Source of the DNA: Nonlabens sp.
Lineage (GTDB): Bacteria; Bacteroidota; Bacteroidia; Flavobacteriales; Flavobacteriaceae
Direction of reading: 5' to 3'
Length of the DNA stretch: 64,000 nt
Assembly: GCA_020630715.1 (NCBI GenBank)
Contig: JAHDIQ010000002.1
Location: 300,189 to 364,188 of the forward strand
Translations under genes and position numbers: made by a program
Shown here: positions 12,696 to 60,924 of the stretch, in pieces
How the letters are laid out: each line of letters starts with the position of its first letter
Numbering within the stretch: position 1 is the first letter of the stretch
The notes under the pieces: model-generated
Seen by the model: only the letters and a program-made list of their open reading frames with translations
What the model was told of the DNA's origin: nothing
Database searches by the model: none

Positions 12696-12721
12696 GTCAA
12701 ATATTTTATTAAACTTTTACA

Positions 12722-14332: not shown

Positions 14333-14335
14333 CAA

Positions 14336-28235: not shown

Positions 28236-28236
28236 T

Positions 28237-45662: not shown

Positions 45663-46637
45663 ATGCAAGATAACATCGCAAAAGAGGTGCAAGAAGCCCT
45701 TACCGCAAGTCCAGAAGAAATTAATTTTGAACAACTTCAAAATGAAGATAGTAGTCCGCTTAATCAGCCTGTCATAGAAAAAGATATAGGTGGTGAATGT
45801 CCTCTTGAAACCGAAGAAAAACAGAAAAGCTGGAACGTCTGGAAACCAAAACAAGAGCATAAAACGCTAGATGAATTAGAACCTAAACATAGCGTAAATA
45901 CGCAAATAGACTTTAGAAGTACCGTTGAAGCTAATGTGGAAAAGGAAAAAGCACAGGAACCATTAGACGCGCCAGAACAGGATATCAATGGAAACGGATT
46001 TGATACAGATGAAGATGATACGGTAACAGACCAAGATTTTGAAGTACCACTTGCACAAGCTAACCAAGCTGCAGATGCTATTTTAGGAATGTCCAACAAC
46101 GTCCTCGCTGTAGGTGGTGGTTACTTCGTAAAAATCAAAAAACATCAGGAATTTTACGAGTTTGAAGAAATTATTCAAGTTGTAGATGAGCAAAACAACA
46201 AGAATGTTGAGCGTATCAAACTTGATAAAGAAGACCAAGCCTTACTGAGGCCTCTACTCGCTCAAGTGCTGCGTAAGAAAGCTAAAAAGCTTACGCCAGA
46301 ACAGCAATTGATGGGTGCAGTCATTTCCATCTTAATGAAAAAAGCACAAATCGTTCTGGAAGTACGAGCAGAGAATAATCTTCTTGAAAATCGCATTCTA
46401 GATATTGTGCGTCAGGAAAAAGGAGAAACAGAAGTTGATGATGTTGAAAAAGATGACAGAGATAATGATGACATTGATAGTTCTAATTCCGCTTTCGCGA
46501 AAGCGGAACCAAAACAAGAGCCAGAACAAAGAGAAGTAAATAAGCCAGAACCTATCATAAAAGACATCGAAGCAGAAGAAGTCGATGAAGGCCTACCTAT
46601 TTTAGAGGTTGCCGAAGAACCACAAAACAATTCGTAA
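45663..46637 (+). CDS. acidic structural or scaffolding-like protein
   Basis: A 324-residue very acidic protein with low-complexity N- and C-terminal thirds and an ordered middle (about 130-265), which includes FEVPLAQANQAADAILGMSN, AVGGGYFVKIKKHQEFYEF and a helical segment. It overlaps the packaging-type ATPase gene by one base, so the two probably act together. A GCTTTCGCGAAAGC copy encodes SAFAKAEP. No family was recognised. Confidence 0.6.
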   Translation: MQDNIAKEVQEALTASPEEINFEQLQNEDSSPLNQPVIEKDIGGECPLETEEKQKSWNVWKPKQEHKTLDELEPKHSVNTQIDFRSTVEANVEKEKAQEPLDAPEQDINGNGFDTDEDDTVTDQDFEVPLAQANQAADAILGMSNNVLAVGGGYFVKIKKHQEFYEFEEIIQVVDEQNNKNVERIKLDKEDQALLRPLLAQVLRKKAKKLTPEQQLMGAVISILMKKAQIVLEVRAENNLLENRILDIVRQEKGETEVDDVEKDDRDNDDIDSSNSAFAKAEPKQEPEQREVNKPEPIIKDIEAEEVDEGLPILEVAEEPQNNS

Positions 46638-47566
46638 TGGCTGGAACTACATCTAATCGCGGTCGTAAACCCATCACTTATAAAAAGGAAGATTTAGAAC
46701 GCCAACCAATGATTATGCTTGTTTGTGGCGAAACAGGCGTTGGTAAGACCTACCGAAATAAACAAGAGATTAAGCATTATATTATGGACCATCTCGTGAT
46801 GGGAAAGAAAGGTCGTAAAGTGTTGGCTTTTGATACGAATGATGATGATTATCCGCAATTCAGAACTGTAAGTCCTAATCATCTCAAAGCACTTACAAAG
46901 GTATCATCAAGACGCATTCGTCCATTTAATCCCGACGGTTCGCCTATGGATAATGACCAGAAAAAAGAAGTCATTACCAAAATTATGAAGCACTACAAAA
47001 ATGGGCTTGTCGTCCTGGACGATATCGACCATTATATGACAGGTGCAAAAGGGCAATCTATGATAGGTGCATTGTGTACCGTGCGTCACAAAGGAATTGA
47101 TATCGTACTTACCCATCAATCTGTGGCAAAAATTACCACTTCAGAATGGCAAAACTGCACGTGGTTGCGATTGCACCATCAAGTGGATGATGTAACGCGC
47201 TATCGAGAGCGTATCCCGAAATATCAAATGGTACGTATTGCGCAACTCATTGTAGACGAGCAGTACGAATTATGTTCCAATGCTTTTGCAATGGGTAAGA
47301 TTACGGAGCAACAATTTAAAATTCAGAAAAGCTTTTTTGTCTATGTCAATATGCGAGAGCAACGCATTAAAGGTTGCAGTCGCGCTGCCTTCATCAGAGC
47401 TTGTAAAAAGTTTATCGATCAGGAAGAAAGTAGAAAAGTAAAAATGCTATTAAATGAACAGGATTTTGACGGAAATAAAATCTACAAAACCAAGAATGAA
47501 GCTATTGTGAAGATGATTTCAGAGAAGTTACGTTATCACGAGGATGGTATTGGAACTCCTATCTAA
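46637..47566 (+). CDS. A32/FtsK-HerA-like genome-packaging ATPase
   Basis: A 309-residue P-loop ATPase. Walker A is MLVCGETGVGKTYRN (about 28-41), Walker B is GLVVLDDIDHYM (about 123-134), and a conserved arginine-to-glutamine stretch VRHKGIDIVLTHQS (about 150-163) follows. This Walker A/Walker B/sensor-Q order is the pattern of the A32-like packaging ATPases of tailless dsDNA viruses. Zot-like or other HerA ATPases are alternatives. It comes just before the capsid genes, with the nuclease cargo between them. Confidence 0.7.
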   Translation: MAGTTSNRGRKPITYKKEDLERQPMIMLVCGETGVGKTYRNKQEIKHYIMDHLVMGKKGRKVLAFDTNDDDYPQFRTVSPNHLKALTKVSSRRIRPFNPDGSPMDNDQKKEVITKIMKHYKNGLVVLDDIDHYMTGAKGQSMIGALCTVRHKGIDIVLTHQSVAKITTSEWQNCTWLRLHHQVDDVTRYRERIPKYQMVRIAQLIVDEQYELCSNAFAMGKITEQQFKIQKSFFVYVNMREQRIKGCSRAAFIRACKKFIDQEESRKVKMLLNEQDFDGNKIYKTKNEAIVKMISEKLRYHEDGIGTPI

Positions 47567-48739
47567 CTAATCATCGTCTATAGATTCAATATAATCTTCA
47601 ATAGTTACGCGCTCATTTTCATCTAATAAAAGCGGAGAGTCATCCGGAACTTTTATAGTTTTAATTTCCCATTCTGGCACAACTGTAATAGTAAGTTTTC
47701 CCTCTGTTTTAAAGTTTTTTGAAATGAATTTCCAAGGCAACTCAAGTGTCATTTCTTCAGACAGAGTTTTTAAAAAGAATTGATCCGAAGAAAAAATATC
47801 ATCGCCAACTAATATTTTTTTTCTTGGTTCAAGTTCGACTAGGTGCTTTCTTTTATCAATATGGGTGTCAAATTGTATTGAGTTTACTGAGGGAATAAAG
47901 GCTCTTTGTATTTTTTCACAGTTTTTAAAAGTAGCATACAAAACCTGTTTTGGTAATTTCACAATTAACTTCCAATGTTCTAAAGGTTGAGAACCATTGT
48001 TTGAAACTAAAACAGTAGCGTCAAAGAGACTTCTATTAAATTTAGTCCTTGGTTTACTAGGTGTTACAATATGAGCTTTATGCGTGTTGAATTGATCCCA
48101 AATGTTTTGTCTATCTTGAAATTCTTTAAGCCATTGAGGTATCATATTAGCTGCCTCTCTTTCAAATTCTTCTCTTCTAGTTTTTCCGACTCTTATTATC
48201 CTGAGAAATTTTGGTCTTACCGTAATTTCTGTATTTCCATTTTCAAAAGTTACTTTTACAGACTGGTTTGTTTTAAACGAATTGCTATTTAGATAAAAAT
48301 CATAAGTAGTTTTATTTTCTTGTATCAATTCTACAATCTCTTCCCAAGCATATAAATGAACTTCAAATAAGCCATTCTCTATGTGTTCAATATTTTTTTC
48401 TCTTATATACTCTTCAATTTTTGCATCTTTTATAGCCGTAGTCGCAAAATACATTTTCTTGAGCTTAGGCTTAAAATTCATCGCTTTAGCTATCTCTTCA
48501 TCTATCTCCTTTTTGGTCAATTGTTTATTGGTGTACTCATCTTTTCCTTTACATTGAATCCCAATATAAAAATTAGTTCCATCAGGCATACCACAAACAT
48601 CAATACCAGATTGGTCTTGTCCAGAACGTCCATTTTTCTTTGTTTCTGGACAGTTCCAGACCTCGCCCCATAATTTTTTACAAAGTGTTTCAAAGTCCTG
48701 CCAATTTTCTGGGCGCGGTAAGGATTGCGATATTTTCAT
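47567..48739 (-). CDS. Mrr-like PD-(D/E)XK restriction nuclease, cargo
   Basis: A 390-residue protein. The N-terminal nuclease has WQDFETLCKKLWG (Glu17), GQDQSGIDVCG (Asp47) and IGIQCKGK (Gln62-x-Lys64), a QxK variant of the catalytic site. The C-terminal half (about 160-390) is beta-rich and has no known domain. It is the only minus-strand gene between two plus-strand core genes, in tail-to-tail orientation with the ATPase (stops adjoin). It is probably a stand-alone restriction or defence factor. Confidence 0.78.
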   Translation of the reverse strand: MKISQSLPRPENWQDFETLCKKLWGEVWNCPETKKNGRSGQDQSGIDVCGMPDGTNFYIGIQCKGKDEYTNKQLTKKEIDEEIAKAMNFKPKLKKMYFATTAIKDAKIEEYIREKNIEHIENGLFEVHLYAWEEIVELIQENKTTYDFYLNSNSFKTNQSVKVTFENGNTEITVRPKFLRIIRVGKTRREEFEREAANMIPQWLKEFQDRQNIWDQFNTHKAHIVTPSKPRTKFNRSLFDATVLVSNNGSQPLEHWKLIVKLPKQVLYATFKNCEKIQRAFIPSVNSIQFDTHIDKRKHLVELEPRKKILVGDDIFSSDQFFLKTLSEEMTLELPWKFISKNFKTEGKLTITVVPEWEIKTIKVPDDSPLLLDENERVTIEDYIESIDDD

Positions 48740-48892: not shown

Positions 48893-49063
48893 ATGGCAAA
48901 CAAGAACGACATCGCCTGGACACCAATTCTTTATTGTGTAGGAGCAGGCGTCGCTGGAATCGCATTAGGAACTTTTTTAATCGGTCCGATGATGCAAAAG
49001 ATGAAAGCAAAAAAACTAGCAGCCGCTAAAAAACCAGCTACTGCAACCACAGCTAAAAAATAG
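48893..49063 (+). CDS. small single-TM protein upstream of the capsid candidate
   Basis: A 56-residue ORF starting ATG at 48893 and ending TAG at 49063. It has one TM helix (about 11-33, IL YCVGAGVAGIALGTFLIG-type with glycines) and a lysine/alanine-rich C-terminus (KKPATATTAKK). The position immediately before the candidate major capsid gene, and the resemblance in layout to the later membrane proteins, suggest a virion membrane protein. Confidence 0.65.
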   Translation: MANKNDIAWTPILYCVGAGVAGIALGTFLIGPMMQKMKAKKLAAAKKPATATTAKK

Positions 49064-49133: not shown

Positions 49134-50039
49134 ATGAAAGATTATAACGACGAGTTAATGCGTTACGAAGAAGCTGCTGAAGACCAGTATGACGATTACG
49201 ATAACGATATGTACGACGAGGAAGAAGACGACTTCGATACTGGATTTGAAGGTTTAGAAGACGGTTATGACGAGGAGTACGAAGATGAATTTGACGATTA
49301 CGACGACTATGCCGACGAAGGCGAGTACGACGATGATGCCTATGACGATTACACCAAATCATCCATAGGTAAAATAGACCCTAACGACAGAACCTTAACG
49401 GTAGTCGTGACTAACAAATCTGGTGCACGTGCCGAGGCAGTCATCTTTGGCGGTAATGCCGAAGCTGCACAGCCTAATGGGGTTACTGTAGATATTGAAG
49501 AGTCCAGCCACAAAGAAGTGCGTGAAGAGAGTAAATCAAATCCGTTTAAGATTGCAGGAATGAAATACTCGGTGAGCAATTCGCTCCAGTTTGATAACGT
49601 CCTGCGCATTGACCGTAGAACGGCATCAGGTTCTAAGACGACCAGAGTGTATCAACCGCGTAATGCGACTTCGCCTCAAAACTTCACCCAGCAACTTATC
49701 GATGACGATAACTTTGAGATGGATGTCACAGGTCAGGATTCTTTAAGAGTGTTTATTGAAGATGGCGTTACCGCAGTTTTCACATTTACAATTAAAGCGA
49801 GAGCAAACCTAGGAAACCTTCTTAAAGGTAGCAACGTGGCAGAACTTTCTAGAGCGCCACGTACGACAGGGTTGCCACAGTTAGACCTTATCCGTCGCAA
49901 GAGACCGACAGCATTAGGTATGCGTCCTAGACGCAGAGTGAGACGTCCTGCGCGTAGAATCGTAAAACGTCGTCGACTAGTCAGAAAACCGGTGGCCAGA
50001 CGTCCAGTTTCTCGATTGGTAAGACGTCGTAGACGATAA
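49134..50039 (+). CDS. candidate major capsid protein
   Basis: A 301-residue protein in three parts. Residues 1-73 are almost all Asp, Glu and Tyr. Residues ~80-235 form a beta-rich domain beginning LTVVVTNKSGARAEAVIFGG and ending in TFTIKARANLGNLL. Residues 245-301 are arginine-rich (RRKRPTALGMRPRRRV onward). The middle domain matches the 505-aa protein at 53177 at both ends (VTN...GAN, NP...K...SPQNF...NLL). Size, single copy and the adjacent packaging-type ATPase make it the best capsid candidate. A jelly-roll fold is inferred, not shown. Confidence 0.6.
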   Translation: MKDYNDELMRYEEAAEDQYDDYDNDMYDEEEDDFDTGFEGLEDGYDEEYEDEFDDYDDYADEGEYDDDAYDDYTKSSIGKIDPNDRTLTVVVTNKSGARAEAVIFGGNAEAAQPNGVTVDIEESSHKEVREESKSNPFKIAGMKYSVSNSLQFDNVLRIDRRTASGSKTTRVYQPRNATSPQNFTQQLIDDDNFEMDVTGQDSLRVFIEDGVTAVFTFTIKARANLGNLLKGSNVAELSRAPRTTGLPQLDLIRRKRPTALGMRPRRRVRRPARRIVKRRRLVRKPVARRPVSRLVRRRRR

Positions 50040-50082
50040 TCCCGTAACAAGGAACTCGTCCAGACTTTGTACCTAATACCAG

Positions 50083-50125
50083 ACAGCCAGAGTCGGTTTT
50101 ACCCTAAACCATAAACTCTGGCTGT
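50083..50125 (+). terminator. hairpin after the capsid candidate
   Basis: An exact 11-bp inverted repeat ACAGCCAGAGT/ACTCTGGCTGT (50083-50093, 50115-50125) with a 21-nt loop, 44 bases past the stop. The T-run is short (TTCTTATT), so partial termination is likely, leaving the abundant capsid gene more strongly expressed than the genes after it. Confidence 0.7.
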
Positions 50126-50141
50126 TCTTATTAAAATCAAG

Positions 50142-50783
50142 ATGAAAAATACCTTACCAACACCTTCACTCGCCCAAAACAGAATTGACTACATCGTCTA
50201 TCACAATCCAGATGATGTGGCTAAGTTGTTATTTGACTACGGTTTTGAAGCGCCCGAAGACCCCACGCATTTGGCAGAAGCAATAAAGGAGCTTACGCGA
50301 AAAAAAGGTCGCAAGGTCATTAAGGAACTCATCCAGCTCCATCCAGATAAAGACGCAATTCTTAAACTCAACACCGCTCAAGAAGATAACTTTTGCGGTG
50401 CGTGCAGTAATGATTCATACAACACAGAAAGCAACTTTTGTAGAGCTTGTGGACATTCTAATTATGCAGGCACAGGTGATGAAGATAGCTTTCTCAATCA
50501 GTTTGAAAGCTATAACGATAAAGCACTCGAGCGCTATTACCAGACCATTGTAAAACGTTCAAATGCCAATGCTGAAGACAAAAATCTGGCACAGGAAGTT
50601 CAAATGGTTTGGAACGAATTGCGCATCCGTAAGGAAGCAAAGAAAAAGGAAGAAGAACCTAAACCGCATACTCAAAAAACCTTCAGTATAACCAAAGATG
50701 AATTGATACTTTTTGGAGTGGTTTTTATCGCTGGAGCGTTAGTTGGTCACGGTTTAAAATTCAATATGAATAATGTCAAATAA
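50142..50783 (+). CDS. zinc-ribbon protein with C-terminal membrane anchor
   Basis: A 213-residue protein. A zinc-ribbon pair CGACSNDSYN / CRACGHSNYA lies at about 84-108. A helical middle and one C-terminal TM helix (ELILFGVVFIAGALVGHG, about 187-206) follow. The N-terminus contains a helical segment ending in AIKELTRKKGRKVIKEL. It may be a virion membrane component. It overlaps the next gene by 11 bases. Confidence 0.65.
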   Translation: MKNTLPTPSLAQNRIDYIVYHNPDDVAKLLFDYGFEAPEDPTHLAEAIKELTRKKGRKVIKELIQLHPDKDAILKLNTAQEDNFCGACSNDSYNTESNFCRACGHSNYAGTGDEDSFLNQFESYNDKALERYYQTIVKRSNANAEDKNLAQEVQMVWNELRIRKEAKKKEEEPKPHTQKTFSITKDELILFGVVFIAGALVGHGLKFNMNNVK

Positions 50784-51390
50784 ACAATCACAGTACAATC
50801 AGGCCATCGATAATCTCACCTATTTGGTATTGCATTATCCTAAACCTGTTCAGGATTTACTGGCGCAACACAACGTCTTTTTTCAGGGTAAACCAGTAAA
50901 GGAACAACTCAGTAATGAGATTATAGAGCTATTGAAAGATGGTAATTCCGCTTTCGCGAAAGCGTTAGAAACTCTTATCGCACGTGTCTCATCACAAGAT
51001 AACGACCAGTTTTGGGGAGCAGTGGCTAAAGGAGCTGTAGGTATTTTAGGCGGACTATTAAAAAAGAAAAAGCGTAGTAGTTCTGGTTCCGGAAATGCGG
51101 CAGCGGCAGCACAAGCCGCAGCAGCAAAACGCGATATGGAAACGCGTATGCAACGAATGCGCGAAGAGCAAGAACAAAGACGAAAAGAAGCCGAAGAACG
51201 ACGTAGACAGGAAGAAGAGCGCAGACGCCTTGAGGAACAAAAGAAATCTGAAGCAGCCAAGAAGAAAACCAATATGATGCTGATGATAGGTGGCGGTGTG
51301 GTCGTCTTAGGAATAGGTGCGGTAGTATTAATGAAATCTGGTCGTCCACCAATGCCTTATGGACAACCACCGATGCCAATGCCAAGATAA
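50773..51390 (+). CDS. coiled-coil membrane protein
   Basis: A 205-residue protein. An alanine-rich segment (about 112-122) is followed by a long Arg/Glu/Gln coiled coil (about 125-170, RRQEEERRRLEEQKK). One TM helix (about 173-192, MMLMIGGGVVVLGIGAVVLM) and a proline/methionine-rich tail follow. The N-terminal 100 residues resemble the N-terminus of the previous protein (helical, LLxxH...). A GCTTTCGCGAAAGC copy encodes SAFAKA. Confidence 0.65.
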   Translation: MSNKQSQYNQAIDNLTYLVLHYPKPVQDLLAQHNVFFQGKPVKEQLSNEIIELLKDGNSAFAKALETLIARVSSQDNDQFWGAVAKGAVGILGGLLKKKKRSSSGSGNAAAAAQAAAAKRDMETRMQRMREEQEQRRKEAEERRRQEEERRRLEEQKKSEAAKKKTNMMLMIGGGVVVLGIGAVVLMKSGRPPMPYGQPPMPMPR

Positions 51391-51392
51391 CA

Positions 51393-51971
51393 ATGACCAA
51401 TACTTTCGCACTTACAGATTATGATGTTTATCAAGAGAATGATAATTTCTTAGGAACCGTTATCGCTGGTCGTTACTTTAGGAAAAGAATTAGAAGGAAA
51501 CGCAGAAAAAGAATAAACAAGCAAAGAAGACTTAATAGACCAAAATTGAGCCGACCACCGAGGAGAACACGTCCTAAAATAGTCAAAATACGTCCACTGA
51601 AATCACCTTCGGTAGCTAGAAATACTGAAGCGCCAGTTCCAAAGAAAAAGCCTGTAACTATACCACCTAATGTTCTAGCCCGAAAAAAGATAAAGGCTCC
51701 ACCTAAAACAACCATTAACGAACTCATTGAGAAAACTAATCCCGTAGTTGTTAAAACTCCTTTGTCTAAGGAATCCGCAGTAGAATTAAAGAAGATTGAA
51801 AACCATTCTATAGAGGCTAGTAAAAAAGCAATAAAGTCTGATAGTAAAGTTAGTAAGGTTATTAAAGTAATTGCTGTTGCAGGAACACTAGGTATAATAG
51901 GATATGGAGTATACAAATACGTTCAAATCAGTAAAAGTCAAACGGATATAAACAAATCCAATCAGCTATGA
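51393..51971 (+). CDS. arginine-rich membrane-anchored protein
   Basis: A 192-residue protein. Residues ~27-70 are strongly basic (RYFRKRIRRKRRKRINKQRR, then proline-rich basic stretches). One TM helix is near the C-terminus (VIKVIAVAGTLGIIGYGVY, about 155-175). A basic N-terminal tail with a membrane anchor suggests binding of the genome to the virion membrane; this is an inference. It overlaps the next gene by four bases. Confidence 0.65.
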   Translation: MTNTFALTDYDVYQENDNFLGTVIAGRYFRKRIRRKRRKRINKQRRLNRPKLSRPPRRTRPKIVKIRPLKSPSVARNTEAPVPKKKPVTIPPNVLARKKIKAPPKTTINELIEKTNPVVVKTPLSKESAVELKKIENHSIEASKKAIKSDSKVSKVIKVIAVAGTLGIIGYGVYKYVQISKSQTDINKSNQL

Positions 51972-52429
51972 TTATAGGAGAAACAGAAAGCATTATAAGT
52001 CGCCATCTACAGGATGAAGATTATGATGATTTTTTTGGAAACAAACAGAAACGTCAAGCCAGACGTGCCAAACGAAAAGCAAAAAGAGCTGCAAGAAGGT
52101 CTGCTCCTAAACGTGTCGCTCGTAGAGCTAAGCGTAAACAGTTTTTTAGCGACATAGGTAAGGTGTATAATGACATCGGTGGTGCTACTGCCATAGGTAG
52201 CGCTATCGACTCTTTGACCCGACCTAAACGACCTGATTATGGTACTTCAACAACAGAAACACCTTCTGACTTCTCTATAGACTTAGGTGCTCCTGAAATT
52301 CCAGAAGAAGATAAAAAAGGCATTCCTACCGTCGTTTATATTTTAGGTGGTGTTGTGGTCGTTGGTGTCATTGGTCTCGCTGTGATGAGTAATTCTAAGA
52401 ATAAGCAATACCAACAATACGGTCAGTGA
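51968..52429 (+). CDS. arginine/lysine-rich membrane protein
   Basis: A 153-residue protein with a protamine-like block (KQKRQARRAKRKAKRAARRS, about residues 25-44, continuing to ~55) and a C-terminal TM helix (VVYILGGVVVVGVIGLAVM, about 125-142). The layout matches the preceding protein, so the two may share a job in genome binding or membrane attachment. Confidence 0.65.
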   Translation: MIIGETESIISRHLQDEDYDDFFGNKQKRQARRAKRKAKRAARRSAPKRVARRAKRKQFFSDIGKVYNDIGGATAIGSAIDSLTRPKRPDYGTSTTETPSDFSIDLGAPEIPEEDKKGIPTVVYILGGVVVVGVIGLAVMSNSKNKQYQQYGQ

Positions 52430-53184
52430 TAACAACCATTCCATCCAATAAAGAGCGCTTTCAGATAAAACTGACCATAATGGCTTTGATGCCTTTTGAG
52501 TTGGGGATTCGTGTGTATGACCCTAGATATCCTAATAGCTATTATTTTAGGAGAAAAGCCGCTTTCGCGAAAGCGAACTCAAAACGAGAATTTATCATCG
52601 CCTTACCAGTTTCTCCAGAAGTGCTGGAAATGGAAGTCTTTGATAAAAACGATGCAGATGATGATGCTTTTGAAATCGTAAACGTAAAGATTGAAAAGAT
52701 GCCAGCGCTTGCTGTCTGGGCAACTGATGACCAACATCGCTTTTTAGAATTTGCCATTCAGTTCGCACAAAAAGCAGGTTATGTGCCTCCCGGATTTTAT
52801 GAGAGTCCAGACCGTGAGTTTCTGTTTCAATATTTAGATAAAATCACCGACCCATTTGGTACAGAGCTTATCACACCAGCGAGAACGCATCGTAAAATGC
52901 CAAGGGTGCAAATCTCACAACGGTTGTTTAAGTCTTATACCATTCCTATTCGAGTAGCAATTTTAGCGCACGAAGGCTGTCACTGGTTTTTAAATACACG
53001 CAGTCAAACCACCGCAGATTTATGCGGAATGAAACAATACCTCGATTATGGTTTTCCAACCATAGAAGCTGTGTATGCCGTAACTAAAGTGTTCGGGAAA
53101 AACCCAGAAATGGTCGGTGCTTCACAAATTGAACGCACCAAAGATGTCATCAATTTTATAGAAAACTACAGAGTAAATGAGTAA
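52426..53184 (+). CDS. zincin-like metalloprotease fold protein
   Basis: A 252-residue protein. AHEGCHWFLNTRSQTTADLCG (residues 181-201) contains HEGCH, an HExxH zinc-protease signature (His182, Glu183, His186); Asp198 is a possible third ligand. The N-terminal third is beta-rich. GTG at 52426 overlaps the previous stop; ATG at 52480 is an alternative start. In a virion-gene cluster it might process virion proteins, but the target is unknown. A GCTTTCGCGAAAGC copy encodes AAFAKAN. Confidence 0.65.
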   Translation: MITTIPSNKERFQIKLTIMALMPFELGIRVYDPRYPNSYYFRRKAAFAKANSKREFIIALPVSPEVLEMEVFDKNDADDDAFEIVNVKIEKMPALAVWATDDQHRFLEFAIQFAQKAGYVPPGFYESPDREFLFQYLDKITDPFGTELITPARTHRKMPRVQISQRLFKSYTIPIRVAILAHEGCHWFLNTRSQTTADLCGMKQYLDYGFPTIEAVYAVTKVFGKNPEMVGASQIERTKDVINFIENYRVNE

Positions 53185-54694
53185 AGCAACATATAATTGG
53201 TTTGACAAACAAGCAAGTTTGAAACGTTTTTATAAGCAACTTCAACAGGATAATGAAGTGGTTCAGGTTACTGTAACTAATCATACCAGAGATATCAGAA
53301 AAGTATCCCTTTGGGGTGCCAATACTGAAACTAAATTAACGGAAGACGAAAGTTTTAAAAACTCATTTGACACTATTATTGAGACCGAACAAAATCCCAT
53401 GGATGTTATTTACAATACAGCGAGTAATAGGTACTATATCCTAAATGAAGGAGCTGACGCGATGACGATTGTAAGCACTGAAGGAATCATTGAAAAACTC
53501 ATTGACTTGAATACCAATTCAAATGTGGATATCAAAGGTCCTGTAAAACTCTCTTACAATTCAAACCAATCTCATCCCAACTATGGAGACATTGCCATTG
53601 CTTGTAAAAGAGCTGACCAAGTTTTGATTTTAAACCATTCAGGTGAAGTAAAAGAAGTAGTAAATACTGGCGTTGAACCAGTTGATATCGTTTATAATAC
53701 GTACAACAATCGTTTCTATGTGGCTAATTCAAAATCAGATTATGTAACGATGATTGACCAAAGCTATCAGTCGTATCAATTAAATGGTTTCAGGGCTCCA
53801 ATTAGTTTAGGGTTCAATAGTGCTAATGCAGATCTTCTTGTGTATGATACTGGAACCTCAGAAATTCATTTAATAAGTGAATCTGGAGCATTTAAAAATA
53901 AGATAGAGGGAATTCTAACAGATGTTATATCCATTGACTTTAGTGTAGAGCTTAACTTGTTCTATGTTTCTAGTTTTCAAACGAATGAAATTCATGTGAT
54001 AAATGCTGAAACATTAGAAATTCAAAGAAAGTTTACTGGAGTACCTAAACCTTTAAAACTAAGGTTTCAAAAGGATGTAAAAGTGATTAGAGTTATTGAT
54101 AACACAACTAATGCACTTATCACTCTAGACACCAATCTAAATGTGATTGGAAACGAGTCGTTGAGCGGTTTTGACACATTTCTTTTAGACGGTCCTTCAA
54201 CTGTTTTTCTTAATTCAACAAATAACCAAATCAAAATTAGAGGAACCATTCAAAGTCCTACCGTAACCGTAAACGAAGAGTATTATGAAGATCGTCAAGA
54301 TTTTCAATACAATCCTGCGATGGTTGGTCACGTGAAGCTGGTCGCCTCTGGAGAAGACCGCATCAATGCACTTCAGATTATGGAGAAGTCGGTAACTGGA
54401 ACCGAGATTTGTAAAACCATCTCTTTAAGTAATAGTCAGAGTCCCCAAAACTTTGCAAATGTTTCAGAGATATTTGACTTTAATGGCAATCTGATAGATG
54501 GTCACGTGACCTGGTGTTTTAAAATCAATCCATTGCAACAGGCGACTTTTCTAATTTATTACCAGCAAATCGAGATGTATAATTTACTTCCCGAAAAATC
54601 AAGAATATCTACTGGTGTCCAAATGAGTAAGGGCATTCCAGTATCGTGGCTCGATAATCCTAAAGACGAGCCACCTAATGCCGCAACTTATTAA
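53177..54694 (+). CDS. capsid paralogue with inserted beta-propeller
   Basis: A 505-residue protein. Residues ~29-52 (VVQVTVTNHTRDIRKVSLWG) match the first strands of the candidate capsid protein. Residues ~72-355 form YVTN/NHL-like propeller repeats, such as NPMDVIYNTASNRYYILN and EPVDIVYNTYNNRFYVAN. Residues ~375-475 resume the capsid-like domain (YNPAMVGHVKLV, SNSQSPQNF, NLL). I infer a virion protein with the propeller protruding, as a turret, spike or receptor-binding head. It overlaps its neighbours by 8 and 17 bases. Confidence 0.65.
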   Translation: MSKATYNWFDKQASLKRFYKQLQQDNEVVQVTVTNHTRDIRKVSLWGANTETKLTEDESFKNSFDTIIETEQNPMDVIYNTASNRYYILNEGADAMTIVSTEGIIEKLIDLNTNSNVDIKGPVKLSYNSNQSHPNYGDIAIACKRADQVLILNHSGEVKEVVNTGVEPVDIVYNTYNNRFYVANSKSDYVTMIDQSYQSYQLNGFRAPISLGFNSANADLLVYDTGTSEIHLISESGAFKNKIEGILTDVISIDFSVELNLFYVSSFQTNEIHVINAETLEIQRKFTGVPKPLKLRFQKDVKVIRVIDNTTNALITLDTNLNVIGNESLSGFDTFLLDGPSTVFLNSTNNQIKIRGTIQSPTVTVNEEYYEDRQDFQYNPAMVGHVKLVASGEDRINALQIMEKSVTGTEICKTISLSNSQSPQNFANVSEIFDFNGNLIDGHVTWCFKINPLQQATFLIYYQQIEMYNLLPEKSRISTGVQMSKGIPVSWLDNPKDEPPNAATY

Positions 54695-55115
54695 TATAGC
54701 CTTAAGTCAATACGGTGTAACCGAAATTGTAGGTAAAGAGCATAATCCCATTGTTGTCAATTACTTCAAGGAAATAGGACATATTTGGGTCACTACAGAT
54801 GAAACTGCGTGGTGTTCTGCCTTTATCAATTGGGTAGCATTCAGGGCGAAAGTAGAACGAAGTCATAAACTAACCGCTCGTTCTTGGCTGCAAATTGGTA
54901 TCGAAATTAAAGAACCCAAACTCAACGACGTAGTTGTTTTCTGGCGTCATAAAAAATCCAGTTGGAAAGGTCACGTAGGACTATTTGTTAATTACTCAGA
55001 GGACAAAAAATACATCTATGTCTTGGGTGGTAATCAGAACAATCAAGTCAACATCAAGAAATATCCTGTCTATCGCTTATTGGGCTTTAGACTCTTATCA
55101 GCTATAAACTCTTAA
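54678..55115 (+). CDS. CHAP/TIGR02594-type peptidoglycan amidase
   Basis: A 145-residue cysteine peptidase-like protein. ETAWCSAFINW carries catalytic Cys46, and SWKGHVGLFV carries His99. GGNQNNQV supplies the usual third position near residue 119. This is the TIGR02594 pattern common in phage endolysins and virion-associated lysins. No signal peptide is present. It would cut peptidoglycan cross-links on entry or exit. Confidence 0.82.
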   Translation: MPQLINIALSQYGVTEIVGKEHNPIVVNYFKEIGHIWVTTDETAWCSAFINWVAFRAKVERSHKLTARSWLQIGIEIKEPKLNDVVVFWRHKKSSWKGHVGLFVNYSEDKKYIYVLGGNQNNQVNIKKYPVYRLLGFRLLSAINS

Positions 55116-55125
55116 ATCACAGAAG

Positions 55126-55620
55126 ATGCAAAAAGTAGATTATCTCATTATACAAAGTACCGACACCAGCGAAGCGAAAGACTTCGGTAAGGAAATTATT
55201 ATCAATCAACATACGCTTCCTAAAGATAAAGGCGGTTTTGGTTGGAACCGTCCAGGCATTGATTACCTCGTACTTCAAGATGGTGTTTTACAAACCATCA
55301 TTAGCGAAGAAAGCCCAACAATTACAGATTTATGGGGCATCTCTCACGGAAAAAATGGAATCACAGGAATTGCAAAACACATCGCCTATGTGGGCGGTAG
55401 AACACTCAAAGAAGCTTGGGACAAAGACACACGTACCGATGAACAAAAGGCGGCACTTGAAGCGATTGTAAAGTTTTATATACTGCGCTTTCCAGAAATC
55501 ATTATCGCAGGTTTTAATGAAATCCCTGCCAAAGCTGATGAAGATAGTCCAGGATTTGTAGTGGCTGAATGGCTCAGAGAATTAGACATTCCTGAGCGTA
55601 ATATTTACAAGAGAAAGTAG
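55126..55620 (+). CDS. degenerate T7-lysozyme-type amidase
   Basis: A 164-residue protein with the N-acetylmuramoyl-L-alanine amidase fold: YLIIQSTDTS, GWNRPGIDYLVLQDG, YVGGRTLKEAWDKDTRTDEQ, and FPEIIIAGFNEIP...SPGF. The three zinc ligands known from T7 lysozyme are replaced: His to Gln10, His to Phe130, and Cys to Ser141. The His of the GYH motif is also changed, to Asp46. It is therefore probably catalytically dead and may serve as a wall-binding or structural protein. Confidence 0.75.
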   Translation: MQKVDYLIIQSTDTSEAKDFGKEIIINQHTLPKDKGGFGWNRPGIDYLVLQDGVLQTIISEESPTITDLWGISHGKNGITGIAKHIAYVGGRTLKEAWDKDTRTDEQKAALEAIVKFYILRFPEIIIAGFNEIPAKADEDSPGFVVAEWLRELDIPERNIYKRK

Positions 55621-55809
55621 ATGAAAACGATTTTGACATTAGGCGTTGGTTTTTGGTTGGGCAGGCAGCTGTATATCAATTATGATAAGCGTACCGCATT
55701 AAGAAAAGAAGCACAACTCAAAGCTCGCCTTCAGCAATTTTTAGAACAAAACGATTTTAGTAAAACCGATAGTAAAAAACACAGTAATACCATTTTCAGA
55801 AACAATTAA
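55621..55809 (+). CDS. small basic protein, possible membrane anchor
   Basis: Sixty-two residues with a short hydrophobic N-terminus (ILTLGVGFWLGRQLYI, about 4-19) followed by basic, glutamine-rich helix. It starts directly after the amidase-like gene and overlaps the next ATG by one base. No family was recognised. Confidence 0.6.
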   Translation: MKTILTLGVGFWLGRQLYINYDKRTALRKEAQLKARLQQFLEQNDFSKTDSKKHSNTIFRNN

Positions 55810-56255
55810 TGGCTATACAAGTAAACATAGATAACCGCATTTTTTTGGTTCCAGAAGCAGACGATCCGTGTGACTTCTGGACAAGCTATTTCGCAAAATT
55901 AAAGAGCGAATTAGGACAAGAGAATGCAAAAATGATATGGCTCATTACTTGGAAATCTAACGGTTCAGGAATCTGTACTACAAGTCCCAACTTTAACAAA
56001 TGGTTGAATCAAAACAACCTTGATGTATCTAATATGGCCACCAGAACCATTGCCGATTTATCTGAAATAGGCGGCAATATTTTTGGCTTAGGAAAAAGTT
56101 TGACAAAAGTATTATCCATTGGAGTACCTGTAATACTCGCAGTCGTGTTAATTGCAGTTATTGTACTTCTTAAAAATTCAGCAAAAAATGCAGATGTGTC
56201 AGATTTAGCAATGCTCACACCTGCAGGTCGTGGCTTAAAATTATTAGGCAAATGA
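55809..56255 (+). CDS. single-TM structural-region protein
   Basis: A 148-residue protein with an ordered N-terminal domain (WTSYFAKLKSELGQENAKMI, about 24-43; a KSNGSGICTTSPNF turn) and one TM helix (about 106-127, VPVILAVVLIAVIVLLK). The start overlaps the previous stop by one base. It is probably a virion membrane protein. Confidence 0.65.
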   Translation: MAIQVNIDNRIFLVPEADDPCDFWTSYFAKLKSELGQENAKMIWLITWKSNGSGICTTSPNFNKWLNQNNLDVSNMATRTIADLSEIGGNIFGLGKSLTKVLSIGVPVILAVVLIAVIVLLKNSAKNADVSDLAMLTPAGRGLKLLGK

Positions 56256-56740
56256 GTATGACGTATAAAATCATAGGTGCCAGTGTGGTAACGCTCTTTA
56301 TAGGAACGACGTTTTTCTCAATGAGAAAGCGCAGTCGTGACCTACGCACCAGTAAATTGCTAACTGCTATTCAAGCACAAATCCAGCCTATTTCAAGCGG
56401 ACTGACCTCGCAAAATGCTTTTGATATTCATTTTCTGAATAAGGTGTTGCAAACAGTAAATCGCGAAGTGTTGGTGTTAAAAACAAGTACTGCTTCTCGC
56501 TATGCAGACCAGATTCATAAAGCTTGGGGAAGCTGGTATCAAGGTGGCGATGATGAAGAACAAGTTTATGGTGTGATCCGAAAAATGAAGGATAAAGTTC
56601 AGGTGTCACAAGTAGCAAAAGCTTATCAAGAAACCTACTCTAAAAACCTTATTGACACGCTCAAAGATCGCTTTGACAAAGAAGAAATAACCATAGTGCT
56701 CAACATTGTAAAAGCACTACCTAATTACAGAACAGCTTAA
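56252..56740 (+). CDS. single-TM protein, LPNY family member 1
   Basis: A 162-residue protein with an N-terminal TM helix (about 5-24) and a helical domain. The last about 60 residues (YGVIRKMKDKVQVSQVAKAY onward, ending ALPNYRTA) align with the end of the next protein (SLSKAYYQLYKKDMWQHLNS, ending RLPNYQS). The two are therefore a tandem paralogous pair. Confidence 0.68.
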   Translation: MSMTYKIIGASVVTLFIGTTFFSMRKRSRDLRTSKLLTAIQAQIQPISSGLTSQNAFDIHFLNKVLQTVNREVLVLKTSTASRYADQIHKAWGSWYQGGDDEEQVYGVIRKMKDKVQVSQVAKAYQETYSKNLIDTLKDRFDKEEITIVLNIVKALPNYRTA

Positions 56741-56741
56741 T

Positions 56742-57263
56742 ATGGAAATCTCAAAAACAGGATGGTGGATGATAGGTGGCGCAGGACTTGGCGTTGTCGG
56801 TATCGGTGTTTTTGTTACGCTTTCGCGAAAGCGTACAAAGCAACAATCTCTACAATCTACAACAACGGCTTCTATAGGAACTGGTGTGCAAGTCACTACT
56901 GGAAATGTAGGATCTACCAAGCAAGAGCCAAATTGGAACAGTCCATTTGATATGAACTACCTCACAGATGTGCAGAAATGGGTAGCGCCAAAAAGCATTC
57001 AAGTACTGGACGATGCCTCTGCTAAAAAACTCGCTAAAATCATTAAAGATGCTAAAGGCGCTTTTAATGACGATGAAGAGGTTATAAAAGATGTTTTCGG
57101 TAAAAAGCTGCGTGATAAAACACAAATCGCAAGTCTTTCAAAAGCTTATTACCAGCTCTATAAAAAAGATATGTGGCAACACTTAAATAGCTTTTTGAGT
57201 CAAAGTGAAATGAAGGAATATGTTTCAAAATATGTACAACGCCTTCCAAATTATCAATCATAA
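56742..57263 (+). CDS. single-TM protein, LPNY family member 2
   Basis: A 173-residue protein with an N-terminal TM helix (GWWMIGGAGLGVVGIGVFVT, about 6-25), a Ser/Thr/Gln-rich linker and a C-terminal helical domain that is paralogous with the preceding gene product and ends RLPNYQS. A GCTTTCGCGAAAGC copy is read as LSRKR just after the TM segment. Confidence 0.68.
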   Translation: MEISKTGWWMIGGAGLGVVGIGVFVTLSRKRTKQQSLQSTTTASIGTGVQVTTGNVGSTKQEPNWNSPFDMNYLTDVQKWVAPKSIQVLDDASAKKLAKIIKDAKGAFNDDEEVIKDVFGKKLRDKTQIASLSKAYYQLYKKDMWQHLNSFLSQSEMKEYVSKYVQRLPNYQS

Positions 57264-57272: not shown

Positions 57273-57773
57273 ATGAAACAGAAATTAACAACAGCAAATC
57301 CATCATTTATGACGAAAAATAAAGACCTTATAGTGGTAGGTGGTGTTATCGTGGTACTCGCAGGAGCTGCTACTGCGTATTATTTTATGACAAAGAAGAA
57401 AGAGAAAAAAGAAGCTGAATTAGCAAGTGCTTCTTCTGGAGTAACAACGGTTGCAAGCGGTTCGTCCAGCTATCAAACACCACCGTTTATTCCAAGTTCT
57501 TCAACATCATCAGGTTCAAGTACGAAACCAGTTATTACTAAAACAGGCTATCCTATCAAATATGGAAGCCGTCATCCTGATGTGAAAATATTACAGCGTT
57601 ACCTGAAAATCTACAAAGAAGATTTAGGTAAAACGGGACCAAAACGAGATGGTGTGGATGGACAATTTGGACCTAAAACTTCACGAGCTGCGCAAAAGCG
57701 ATTAAAGAAAACAGTATTCACACAAGCCGATATCGCTGGAATGCGAAAAGCGCTGTCAAGTCTTGGGAAATAA
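57273..57773 (+). CDS. membrane-anchored peptidoglycan-binding protein
   Basis: A 166-residue protein. It has an N-terminal TM helix (about 18-38), a Ser/Thr-rich linker (about 50-92), and a PG_binding_1-type domain: YGSRHPDVKILQRYLKIY (about 101-118), then DGVDGQFGPKTSRAAQKRL. The domain should bind cell-wall glycans or peptides. It is followed by a second, weaker PG-binding-like protein. Confidence 0.78.
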   Translation: MKQKLTTANPSFMTKNKDLIVVGGVIVVLAGAATAYYFMTKKKEKKEAELASASSGVTTVASGSSSYQTPPFIPSSSTSSGSSTKPVITKTGYPIKYGSRHPDVKILQRYLKIYKEDLGKTGPKRDGVDGQFGPKTSRAAQKRLKKTVFTQADIAGMRKALSSLGK

Positions 57774-58276
57774 TGAGCGAACAAACGATGCAAAAAGGAT
57801 TACTTATCGCTGGTGGGCTTTTGGGATTAGGATTATTGGGTTACGTACTCTTTAGAGATAAAGAAGAAGCTGTCGAGGATGCTGAATTTACCATTGTTGA
57901 GGAATCAAAATCTGAAAAAGAAGATAAACCTACACCTGTTAAAAAAGTGATTCCTGTTGTTGAAATGAAGCCTGTAGCTCCTTTGGAAAAAGAAAAGAAA
58001 GCAATTGTCAATAAGCCCAAAGTACTTCCAGAACCCAATGATGATTTCCCTTTAAAATTAGGAAGCAAAGGAGAACGCGTTTATCAACTACGAGTGTATC
58101 TCTTGAAAAACCACGGAGCAGCAAAAGGCTTAATAACCGATGAGTTTGATGCTACTACTGAAGAGCGAGTGATAAAATTTTACAAAGTAAAAGAAGTGTC
58201 AGAACAGCTATTTAACGAGCGAAATATGGGTAAGATAAAAAAGCAACAAAAAGATGGCAGAAAAGAGAAGCATTAA
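57773..58276 (+). CDS. TM protein with degenerate PG-binding domain
   Basis: A 167-residue protein with an N-terminal TM helix (about 8-26), an acidic/proline-rich linker, and a C-terminal domain LKLGSKGERVYQLRVYLLKN (about 100-119) with TDEFDATTEERVIKFYKV, resembling a diverged PG_binding_1 fold. The ATG overlaps the previous stop. It is probably a duplicate of the preceding gene that lost sequence identity. Confidence 0.65.
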   Translation: MSEQTMQKGLLIAGGLLGLGLLGYVLFRDKEEAVEDAEFTIVEESKSEKEDKPTPVKKVIPVVEMKPVAPLEKEKKAIVNKPKVLPEPNDDFPLKLGSKGERVYQLRVYLLKNHGAAKGLITDEFDATTEERVIKFYKVKEVSEQLFNERNMGKIKKQQKDGRKEKH

Positions 58277-58502
58277 AGATTTAATAGACGGTCTGGTAGA
58301 TAAAGATGGTATCAAAACGGAAGTTACCGTCACACTTACCAATCAAACATTAACCAAGATAATTCTTGCGCTATTAGCCTCTGGAGCAACCATAGTTTTA
58401 GTAGCACATTTGACTAAGAATCTATTTCCTAATCATCAAATAGCAACGTTACAAGCAGATATTAAAAGCATAAAACGAACCCTTAAAACACAATTAAAAT
58501 GA
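58254..58502 (+). CDS. small single-TM protein
   Basis: Eighty-two residues, with an N-terminal beta-like segment (KTEVTVTLTNQTLTKI), a TM helix (about 37-58) and a basic C-terminal helix. It overlaps the previous gene by 23 bases in another frame. No family was recognised. Confidence 0.6.
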   Translation: MAEKRSIKDLIDGLVDKDGIKTEVTVTLTNQTLTKIILALLASGATIVLVAHLTKNLFPNHQIATLQADIKSIKRTLKTQLK

Positions 58503-58822
58503 TAGAAATTTTAGTACACATATCCAATTATTTAAACAGTCTGGACTGGGCTTATATACTCACCTTTATAGTGATTGCTTATGGTCTTAATCATTACCGC
58601 TCAACCAACTTTTTCTATGAAGTCTTTAAGCTCAAAATTGCGACTCGTTATCGTGTGCTCATAATTGGCATTATTTACGGCGTTGCGTTGTTTTTCTTGA
58701 GAGGTTATCAAATTAAAATGATTGAGTGCTTATTACAGTCTTTTGCTTTTGCACTGGTCTTTCATAAACTCTTATTAGAAAAGTTTTTGAACAAGCTATT
58801 TCAAACGAAACCTAAAGAGTAA
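58499..58822 (+). CDS. multi-TM small protein, possible holin
   Basis: A 107-residue protein with about three hydrophobic segments (19-36, 52-68, 75-92) and a lysine-rich C-terminus. Size, topology and position beside cell-wall enzymes and spanin-like genes fit a holin, but no specific family is recognised. It overlaps both neighbours by a few bases. Confidence 0.55.
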   Translation: MIEILVHISNYLNSLDWAYILTFIVIAYGLNHYRSTNFFYEVFKLKIATRYRVLIIGIIYGVALFFLRGYQIKMIECLLQSFAFALVFHKLLLEKFLNKLFQTKPKE

Positions 58823-59172
58823 TGAAGTTTTGGAAACCTTTTTTATTAGTGCTTTGGATTGCAGGGATTATCGTCTTGCTCATCTTTTACATCATTCCGC
58901 ACGAAGAAGCTTTGAACAATTACACTATTCAGAAATTAGAAAAGAAAAACAAACTACTCTCGATTGAGAATGTAACTCTTGATGAAGAAATAAAAAGGCT
59001 AAAAAAGCAAACGGATAGCTTAACTGGTAAAATAGTCTCAAGTCATAAAACGATAGAAAATTTACAAAATGCACTGGATGAAAAAATTAATACTATTGAT
59101 AGGATGTCTGCTCTGGACTTGTATGAGTATTTCTCAGGATTTACAACCGATAGTACAAGATATAAAGAGTAA
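58822..59172 (+). CDS. TM plus coiled-coil protein, inner-membrane spanin-like
   Basis: A 116-residue protein with an N-terminal TM helix (about 6-27) followed by a periplasmic-type coiled coil (about 36-100). This is the topology of Rz-type i-spanins. The next gene starts inside it in another frame, as o-spanin genes do. The spanin assignment is inferred from layout only. Confidence 0.6.
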   Translation: MKFWKPFLLVLWIAGIIVLLIFYIIPHEEALNNYTIQKLEKKNKLLSIENVTLDEEIKRLKKQTDSLTGKIVSSHKTIENLQNALDEKINTIDRMSALDLYEYFSGFTTDSTRYKE

Positions 59173-59497
59173 GAAATACTTCTGTTTTGACTTGGCTCAA
59201 TCCAAGTATCTGGCAAAGCGATTAGAATACAGTATTTATCAAGATAGCATCATTGACACGCTACAATTACGCAATTATAGATGGCAGAATCTCACTCAAA
59301 AAAAGGATACCATCATCATTAAATTGGAGCGTAAAGTTCAGAATCTTGTTGTCATTCAGGATAATGATGAGTCACATATTCAAGAACTGAATTTGACCAT
59401 AAAGCAACAGCAAAAACAAATAAAAAGAGGTAAGCTGGAGCGCTGGTTTTTTGGCGGAGGCTTACTAGTAATAACCGGAATTATAATCGCACAATAA
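59078..59497 (+). CDS. exported coiled-coil protein with C-terminal TM, spanin-like partner
   Basis: About 139 residues from ATG 59078, with a signal sequence (MKKLILLIGCLLWTCMSISQ; a cysteine-containing but non-canonical lipobox), a coiled coil and a C-terminal TM helix (FFGGGLLVITGIIIAQ). The gene overlaps the preceding one by 95 bases in another frame. ATG 59069 is an alternative start. A palindrome copy (59499) lies just after the stop. Confidence 0.55.
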   Translation: MKKLILLIGCLLWTCMSISQDLQPIVQDIKSKKYFCFDLAQSKYLAKRLEYSIYQDSIIDTLQLRNYRWQNLTQKKDTIIIKLERKVQNLVVIQDNDESHIQELNLTIKQQQKQIKRGKLERWFFGGGLLVITGIIIAQ

Positions 59498-59527
59498 AGC
59501 TTTCGCGAAAGCACGAAATGAAATAAA

Positions 59528-59860
59528 ATGGATTTAATTAAAATACTTGCAATCGTATTAGGAGCTACAGGATTTTGGAAGCTTATTGAAATCCTGTTGC
59601 AATACGGAATGCAAAAACGCTTAAAGAATGCTGAAATACGCAACCTAAATATTCAAGCAAATAGTCTTGTTATTGAAAATTACAAGCTTTGGTCTGAAAA
59701 TATGGAGAAACGCTTGAAACAACTGGAAAGCAAAAATACTTTGATGAATAAAACCATCACTAAACAACGCGACCGCATTACCGAATTGGAAAAATACGTA
59801 GACCAACTTGAAGCTGAAATTCAAGCTTATAAAAAAGAAAAAAACAATGAAGGTGGATAA
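59528..59860 (+). CDS. TM plus coiled-coil protein
   Basis: A 110-residue protein with a short N-terminal hydrophobic helix (about 4-25) and a long coiled coil (about 45-105, rich in Lys, Glu and Gln). It overlaps the next small gene by 14 bases. It probably acts at the membrane, near the lysis-type genes. Confidence 0.6.
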   Translation: MDLIKILAIVLGATGFWKLIEILLQYGMQKRLKNAEIRNLNIQANSLVIENYKLWSENMEKRLKQLESKNTLMNKTITKQRDRITELEKYVDQLEAEIQAYKKEKNNEGG

Positions 59861-59993
59861 AGGAACTAACACATTGAACTATATTTTTGGAGCATTCATC
59901 CTATTGAGTGCAGTCAAAATAGGTTCTGACCTGTTTTTACGATACAAGAAAAGTAAAGCACCAGTTAAAGGCTGTGGTTGTGGTAAAAAGTAG
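59847..59993 (+). CDS. small single-TM protein with CxC tail
   Basis: A 48-residue protein from ATG 59847. An upstream in-frame ATG (59808) lies inside the previous gene. It has one TM helix (about 10-27) and a C-terminal KGCGCGKK motif. The CxC could bind metal or form a disulfide; no family was recognised. Confidence 0.55.
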   Translation: MKVDKGTNTLNYIFGAFILLSAVKIGSDLFLRYKKSKAPVKGCGCGKK

Positions 59994-60510: not shown

Positions 60511-60924
60511 ATACGGTCAATTTGCAGCTTTTTAATTCATTTTTTTAATCAACATTATTTTTAATACTTAGCATTGATTTAAATAATTGAACTACAACGA
60601 TGAGATAACGGTGAGTGATAAAAATTCATTTCATCGATATTTTCAAATTAAGCTAAAAGGAGATTATAAAGATCTAATTCTACTCCTGGATCAATTATTA
60701 ATTAAGTGTCCCAGCGCATCTTTATTAAGCTTTGATTTTGAACATCATAAACGTAATTACCGTTTTAAAAGACATCTTTCATTGGATGTTGTTTTTGCAA
60801 TAAATGAATAGATAATAGTTTTGTTTGTTATGCAAGCATAATTAAGTAATTGTTAAACAATAGGTATGTGTTTTCAATTACAGGGTGTATTATTTTATCT
60901 TGTAGAAAATTTAAAATTTTAAGT
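60511..60924. other. gap containing a doubtful ORF; possible element end
   Basis: Between the M15 gene and the RHS-like gene, a 74-codon frame (60587-60811) could begin at TTG 60587 or GTG 60611. It contains FHRYFQIKLKGDYKDLILLL-type sequence but has no recognisable family, and it may be a decayed remnant. No tRNA copy or clear attachment-site repeat was found. The region is AT-rich, and the element's right end is most likely somewhere here. Confidence 0.4.

Follow-up and report, generated by a model that had tools for sequence, protein, structure and literature searches.

The 64,000 nucleotides analysed here, referred to as the window (Nonlabens sp., contig JAHDIQ010000002.1, positions 300,189 to 364,188), contain an element that begins at a tRNA-Arg gene and carries, on the forward strand, a conserved module of about 20 genes. 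Two open reading frames (ORFs) of this module are present as an earlier note had described them: 49134-50039, encoding a protein of 301 amino acids (A), and 53177-54694, encoding one of 505 amino acids (B). Protein A consists of an acidic N-terminal part, a beta-sandwich core (residues 86-222, 49389-49799, taken from AlphaFold2 secondary structure and aligned to B) and an Arg-rich C-terminal tail. Protein B is a paralogue of A according to profile comparison and contains two strands common to A (residues 27-45, 53255-53311, from the N-terminal profile alignment), an inserted YncE-type beta-propeller (residues 62-357, 53360-54247) and the remaining strands common to A (residues 360-466, 54254-54574, from profile alignment).

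Relatives were collected as 69 loci (L012-L080), of which 67 were used after L019, which overlaps L013, and L031, which equals L014, had been dropped. These loci are not independent and several are near-identical; 63 of them were fetched via A and four (L012-L015) via B. A is found in 67/67 loci and also in the genus genome G004, and 33 other sequences share 58-96% identity with the A of the window. B was counted in 55 loci, a count of 59 having been discarded since four A proteins had entered the set of B via the per-locus best match; for the same reason a control row comparing the B family (W53177) with A, at a score of 175.9, was discarded. When whole-protein profiles of A and B are compared, 109 columns align with an E-value of 7.7e-6, and the A core aligned with B devoid of its propeller columns gives 137 columns, E 2.5e-13 and a score of 81.2. 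The same score reached at most 20.6 in 100 column shuffles, and for 24 further families of genes from the element the highest scores were 16.4 with A and 19.4 with B. Taken alone, the N-terminal pieces gave an alignment of 25 columns (E 1e-7). A hidden Markov model of B residues 360-505, run on 1929 ORFs from 70 sequences, recovered 58 B proteins and then all 70 A proteins (E 1.2e-8 to 2.9e-3) before the next ORF at 0.47. A and B are therefore paralogues, and the propeller sits between the two shared halves of B, so that both the shared halves and the YVTN/NHL-like insert recognised in the earlier note are borne out.

The folds of the two proteins are predictions. Structure search assigns the insert of B a YncE-like propeller fold, and the searches with B were filled by propeller matches; in YncE itself the matched chain is a propeller alone (aligned over 33-353 of 315-322 residues), whereas the propeller of B interrupts another domain. 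A is likely of jelly-roll type as judged from its model, and a nucleoplasmin-like sandwich was among the likenesses found. The A profile reached only chance level against PDB sequences (best E 0.63). A match of the A model among viral predicted structures (E 4.1e-4, an unnamed protein) was discarded at a root-mean-square deviation of 13.8, and the absence of Helvetiavirae capsid chains from the 50 rows re-examined for A carries no evidential weight, those rows having been taken from the list that Foldseek itself returned. An N-terminal hydrophobic segment occurs in 27 of 56 B proteins. In the B proteins at L012:11371-12873, L014:7981-9459 and L015:8616-10085 the propeller is shorter, the alignment of the insert showing gaps across roughly its final third, and an extra N-terminal extension of about 130 residues is present.

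The propeller is also the part of B that varies most. Between the window and L018, a metagenome-assembled genome of Winogradskyella, identity amounts to 97% in the A core, 94% in the ATPase described below, 89% in the base of B and 20% in the propeller; pairwise alignment of B gives 81% for the N-helix, 79% for the first two strands, 23% for the propeller and 92% for the remaining strands. In steps of 100 bases, DNA identity of the same pair is 84-93% over 52426-53225, 74% in the next step and 35-52% over 53326-54225, then 73% in one step and 82-93% up to 55525, with 69% in the final step. Compared with L013, from the same genus, the propeller is 39.7% identical, the C-terminal part of B 91.8% and its N-terminal part intermediate at 72.7%. 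Protein alignments of 34 sequences including the window, hand-picked for spread and with ATPase values for part of the pairs, yielded 561 pairs of loci, which again are not independent. Propeller identity was below base identity in 494 of them; the gap is clear in the closer identity bands, where the propeller diverges as a unit, and gone in the widest band (9/19 pairs). Identity of the B base was in turn below that of the A core in 560 of the 561 pairs. A domain that is exchanged, or that diversifies fast for recognition, would be expected to leave such a pattern. The steep fall of identity at the propeller edges favours a swap of the propeller rather than mere divergence, although the data alone do not decide between the two. 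In the window and L013, the basic transmembrane protein at 51393-51971 seems to vary almost to the extent of the propeller (42.9% of columns, some of them gaps), the columns for this gene and for that at 59069 being disturbed by gaps or an extra gene.

Upstream of A, at 46637-47566 on the forward strand, lies a gene for a P-loop ATPase of packaging type (309 amino acids), which matches Pfam Zot and Pox_A32 above cut-off. Among 26 homologues, Zot was matched in 24, Pox_A32 in nine and PHROG 2666 (head and packaging) in 24. In profile comparison with 167 proteins, namely 164 ORFs of P23-77, SNJ1, HCIV-1, PM2, PRD1, STIV, M13 and Pf1 together with three that the window encodes, PM2 P9 ranked first (score 47.7, E 1.9e-6, 134 columns), followed by the window's own helicase (34.0), M13 pI (33.0) and PRD1 P9 (32.3), with a median of 13.2. 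The ORFs were called by a greedy script that misses some annotated genes, the ATPase of P23-77 for instance not being among the best rows, and 13 separately compared named proteins cover the main ones; in this second set the ATPases of Helvetiavirae scored 24.6 (HCIV-1), 25.4 (P23-77) and 17.4 (SNJ1), compared with 47.6 for PM2 P9. Against PDB sequences the profile stayed at chance level (best E 0.24). Motors of the Zot/pI type in filamentous phages carry a transmembrane segment, and a simple hydropathy scan found no hydrophobic segment in the 309 residues; in this feature the protein differs from the motors of Inoviridae. The closeness to PM2 P9, the PHROG packaging family and the lack of a hydrophobic segment favour a role in packaging, with an extrusion motor as a possible alternative. 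By its sequence, the enzyme appears to belong with the PRD1/PM2-type packaging ATPases, which alone does not make the element a member of Bamfordvirae. It lies upstream of A on the same strand in 37/67 loci, counted irrespective of flank length, and stands 0.4 to 9.3 kb away from A.

The order of A and B is constant. B lies 3' of A, on the same strand and 2.5-6 kb away, in 54/54 loci that reach at least 6.5 kb past A, 50 of which were fetched without regard to B and four via B; the 12 loci without B end less than 6.5 kb past A, and one further locus with B is also shorter. The remaining genes of the module are likewise on the forward strand, and 15 ORFs between 48893 and 60510 have a hydrophobic segment. 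Ahead of A is a single-transmembrane protein of 56 amino acids (48893-49063; hydropathy; 34/67 loci). Between A and B are encoded a 213-residue, weakly zinc-ribbon-like protein with a C-terminal transmembrane segment (50142-50783; 66/67), a 205-residue protein with a charged middle part (50773-51390; 57/67), a basic 192-residue protein (51393-51971; 47 Lys and Arg versus 13 Asp and Glu; 18/67 by single-sequence search) and a 153-residue protein with an Arg-rich N-terminal part (51968-52429; 58/67), the last three also ending in a transmembrane segment by hydropathy. They are followed by a 252-residue protein with the HExxH motif HEGCH (52426-53184; 57/67), only weakly SprT-like (Pfam E 0.11).

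Three wall-hydrolase-like genes start at 54678, 55126 and 59974. Directly behind B are a lysozyme/NlpC-P60-like wall hydrolase of 145 amino acids (54678-55115), which matches PHROG 1259 (baseplate hub and tail lysozyme, at its C-terminal end) with E 4.5e-32, and an amidase of 164 amino acids (55126-55620; PHROG 822 amidase, 3.9e-16), each in 44/67 loci. The module's last gene encodes an M15-type peptidase of 178 amino acids with an N-terminal hydrophobic segment (59974-60510; Pfam Peptidase_M15_3, 6.1e-13), counted in 3/67 loci because the fetched flanks mostly end before it. The genes in between encode a 148-residue single-transmembrane protein (55809-56255; hydropathy; 50/67), two paralogous proteins of 162 and 173 residues (56252-57263; 50/67 and 52/67), two paralogous proteins of 166 and 167 residues with N-terminal transmembrane segments (57273-58276), the first being PG_binding_1-like at 4.2e-4, below cut-off, and small proteins of 82, 107, 142, 110 and 61 residues with hydrophobic segments (58254-59993; 45, 48, 33, 5 and 2 of 67 loci). 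Since transmembrane segments alone produce weak matches among the many small proteins, only three longer pairs were called paralogues, i.e. 56252/56742 (profile E 6.6e-45), 50142/50773 (1.8e-11) and 57273/57773 (2.6e-12). Duplication thus seems to be a habit of this module, and A and B one case of it.

At the left end, a serine recombinase of 562 amino acids (9575-11263, reverse strand; Pfam Resolvase 5.7e-27, Recombinase 6.3e-8), which we take as the integrase of the element, overlaps a tRNA-Arg (TCT) gene found by ARAGORN at 9620-9694 on the forward strand. Similarity among element copies begins near 9671, placing the left end in or at the 3' half of this tRNA gene as the target of integration. 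Homologues of the integrase with 72-77% identity occupy the same place in the genomes G002 and G013, beside tRNA-Arg TCG (72%) and ACG (77%), and in a second copy within the window's own genome (72%), where similarity sets in at this 3' portion of the tRNA as well, 31 bases short of the contig end. Copies of the element stand beside three different tRNA-Arg genes. On the opposite strand, the integrase ORF extends across the tRNA-Arg gene (9575-9694), similarly in G002, so that integration would set the last residues of the integrase. Between the tRNA and the final gene of the module, the copies span about 51 kb (window), 48 kb (C13), 45 kb (G002) and 71 kb (G013). No long direct repeat was found at the ends of four copies, matches of 11-16 bases being taken as chance; the right flank did not match the tRNA-Arg sites of relatives, and the right end lies somewhere after 60510. 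There, a frame of 1025 codons is open from 60925 to the contig end with no stop, giving the impression of perhaps a host RHS or wall-associated gene. The palindrome GCTTTCGCGAAAGC occurs at 3927, 7777, 15497, 18136 and 59499, in and outside the element (1-20000 compared with 58000-64000), and several ORFs hold the peptide AFAKA, which it could encode.

The left module includes a strawberry-notch-type helicase of 1419 amino acids (19543-23802, forward strand; Pfam Helicase_C_4 5.1e-32, AAA_34 and DarA_C), present in three of five genus genomes with A and in none of 18 without. Defence genes are prominent within the element. Genes of the Ssp phosphorothioation type (SspB 7.9e-98, SspC E 0, SspD 4.2e-91) and a gene of the DndB family (1.7e-21) lie within 35638-42072, and a type I methyltransferase (2.8e-174) and a specificity-type subunit are encoded on the reverse strand within 26835-32108, with a further gene (28237-29772) between them. 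The interval between the ATPase and A (47567-48739 in the window, 1045-3886 in L015, and also in L025, L035, L048 and others) is a cargo site whose content differs by locus. PADLOC was applied to 44 of the 78 cargo ORFs listed and to one from the window; among these 45 it matched AbiEi/AbiEii and type III restriction-modification, and the cargo gene of the window itself had no match. Within the genome's second copy (L012:1165-4970), a helicase-like gene (921 amino acids) and a gene of 345 amino acids stand next to the last module gene; they are reminiscent of the Hachiman defence pair.

Scanning 84,980 species genomes with a pattern-led search returned 65 loci, whose titles name Bacteroidota, marine and other. 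The hosts include Flavobacteriales such as Kordia, Aquimarina, Dokdonia, Winogradskyella and Nonlabens as well as Fulvivirga and Splendidivirga, and named isolates with the element include Kordia algicida OT-1, several Aquimarina, Dokdonia pacifica and Nonlabens. Protein searches gave 338 homologues with A, 372 with the A profile and 53 with B, the A lists comprising the best 120 of 338 and of 372. A was detected in five of 23 genomes of the window's genus, with two copies in its own genome, and across 296 genomes spread over the phylum in its own genome only. The genus genome G004, with a homologue of A at C4:299046-299987, gave no match to the window's B or helicase and appears to carry a more distant variant of the element. 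One B homologue of 649 amino acids (P0171) with the same C-terminal part comes from a metagenome-assembled genome named Opitutaceae, outside Bacteroidota, possibly through misbinning. No description of these elements was found in the open-licence literature, subscription journals and most preprints lying outside the search; small marine elements of about 4.6 kb are different from them (PMC12324425).

Several known viruses resemble parts of this element. The shell proteins of Helvetiavirae (Sphaerolipoviridae, Matshushitaviridae and Simuloviridae, with HCIV-1, P23-77 and SNJ1) are small and have a single jelly-roll fold, which in the element is predicted only, and in P23-77 structural genes, ATPase and wall hydrolases share one genome region as they do here. 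The vertex protein VP9 of HCIV-1 consists of one beta-barrel whose N-terminal helix lies over the membrane, while pentons act as adaptors for differing spikes (PMC6414509). The tall capsid protein of Helvetiavirae is topped by a second jelly roll, whereas B carries a propeller (PMC6414509), and their genomes of 16-31 kb differ from the about 45-71 kb of this element and its Bacteroidota hosts. Corticovirus PM2 provides the closest ATPase and has a spike protein that combines capsid-internal and external parts in one chain (PMC9719478). Its genome measures 10 kb, however, and its shell protein is a double beta-barrel (PMC6414509), a fold that was not recognised in the element; the scanned ORFs gave no such Pfam or PHROG match above cut-off, although a divergent one might have escaped. 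Finnlakeviridae FLiP and phage CjT23, like the proposed particle tailless and membrane-containing, are phages of Flavobacterium, and CjT23 P13 forms both penton base and spike (PMC9719478). They differ in their double jelly-roll shell and single-stranded DNA, in the different small barrel of the CjT23 penton base and in the reported lack of a packaging ATPase in FLiP (PMC9719478, PMC8812541, PMC5894146). At the PRD1/PR772 vertex (P31, P5, P2), P2 has a beta-propeller motif for which receptor binding has been suggested (PMC6750898); the propeller of Tectiviridae belongs to a separate protein, whereas that of the element interrupts a paralogue of the shell candidate. As for tailed phages, with their HK97 capsid, portal, terminase and tail genes, the ORFs scanned with Pfam and PHROG yielded no more than a lysozyme domain that a tail protein also has, weak rows below threshold and a P-loop match to a terminase-labelled PHROG, and the prohead-protease Pfam S78 was absent from the genome.

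Paralogous sandwich proteins, a packaging-type ATPase, wall hydrolases, many transmembrane proteins and the location beside a tRNA together suggest a temperate membrane-containing tailless virus. We give an even chance to the reading that A is the shell protein and B the vertex spike of such a virus, probably integrated at a tRNA-Arg gene. In this virus, A would assemble a shell over a membrane studded with the transmembrane proteins of the module, some of which are very basic and might face the DNA, and the ATPase would pump DNA into the particle. B would use the fold of A to sit in or at the shell vertices and may be tied to the membrane by its N-terminal hydrophobic segment in about half of the relatives. 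The propeller, replacing the loop between the second and third strands of B (C and D by jelly-roll analogy), would point outward and bind the host surface; changing faster than the rest, it would let the particle track host receptors while the shell stays untouched. Wall hydrolases may open the way in or out. The particle with its shell, membrane and vertex, and the binding of a receptor, are what we infer from the gene set. Of the new results, the strongest is how steeply the inserted propeller varies, and it makes the spike role of B testable in existing strains.

Several observations weigh against a virus of this kind. The structural model of A is weak, and neither A nor B, compared with VP16/VP17, VP4/VP7 and PB2/PB7 as single target sequences, gave a signal above noise. 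Known Helvetiavirae capsid families themselves share less than 20% identity with one another (PMC6414509). The interpretation in the earlier note is borne out in part: the jelly roll stands as a likely prediction and the virion role as a supposition, while kinship with the sphaerolipovirus group, which the note had named as an example, did not emerge. The element is larger than prokaryotic double-jelly-roll viruses, which stay below 20 kb (PMC8812541), and than Sphaerolipoviridae at about 30 kb (PMC12643093). It did not turn up in virus collections either: A had no match in 50,697 phage records, 72,556 plasmids and IMG/VR, nor the ATPase in phage records or IMG/VR, where B itself was not searched and where the scans depend on a prior exact hit to a short peptide pattern (12 and 148 stretches passed, and none of them was confirmed) and could miss remote relatives. 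A nucleoplasmin-like chaperone or a non-viral apparatus is possible too. We consider it unlikely, though well worth weighing, that a mobile element builds a non-viral membrane-spanning structure for DNA transfer, extrusion or surface display, with A as scaffold or DNA-binding chaperone and B as surface adhesin. The acidic N-terminal part, nucleoplasmin-like sandwich and Arg-rich tail of A would suit this, as would the resemblance of the ATPase to Zot and M13 pI, the many transmembrane proteins and the absence from virus collections. However, the ATPase is closest to PM2 P9, is placed by PHROGs under head and packaging and is devoid of the transmembrane segment of pI-type motors, and neither relaxase PF03432 nor the VirD4-type coupling protein PF02534 occurs in the whole genome (control genomes were positive; other relaxase families were not tested), so that the element does not qualify as an integrative and conjugative element on these two families.

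That A and B are instead two major capsid proteins alternating in one lattice as in the sphaerolipovirus group, with the propeller as tower of the taller one, which is what the earlier note had proposed, seems improbable to us. Two paralogues with the same predicted core in one cluster do recall HCIV-1 and HHIV-2, whose shells are built from short and tall jelly-roll proteins (PMC6414509). Yet B is far more variable than A, lies behind membrane-protein genes rather than adjacent to A as the capsid genes of P23-77 and HCIV-1 do, has in many relatives a hydrophobic segment that better fits a minor vertex protein, and shows no sequence link to VP4/VP7/VP16/VP17. The heavy defence cargo (Ssp genes, type I methyltransferase and specificity subunit, DndB), together with changing cargo such as AbiE and type III restriction in relatives, might point to a phage satellite with capsids formed only with another phage's help, or to a defence island keeping old virion genes. 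We hold this to be quite improbable, as distant relatives retain the module with its reading frames open, and it brings an ATPase, hydrolases and candidates for shell and spike of its own. Propellers of the YncE type are widespread in bacteria, and several B homologues are named 'YncE family protein' in their sources, as would be expected if A and B were two household proteins of the host, one merely fused to a propeller by chance; given their joint occurrence in the same order at every testable locus, their sporadic presence in genomes and the integrase beside tRNA-Arg, we find this scarcely credible.

The broader proposal, that these elements represent a lineage of family level or deeper, namely tailless temperate viruses of Bacteroidota with one jelly roll as their sole shell fold, used twice, as lattice and as propeller-threaded vertex with an exchangeable receptor-binding cassette, is tentative, and we rate it a little short of evenly balanced. 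If it is true, a whole group of membrane-containing tailless phages lies unrecognised in Bacteroidota genomes, and since named isolates carry the element, a search for its particles could begin immediately. The case would show a spike made from a capsid protein by duplication and insertion, where the two paralogues share a cluster and dozens of natural variants exist. The propeller would then be a host-range cassette that can be typed from genomes, and the element a mobile carrier of defence systems.

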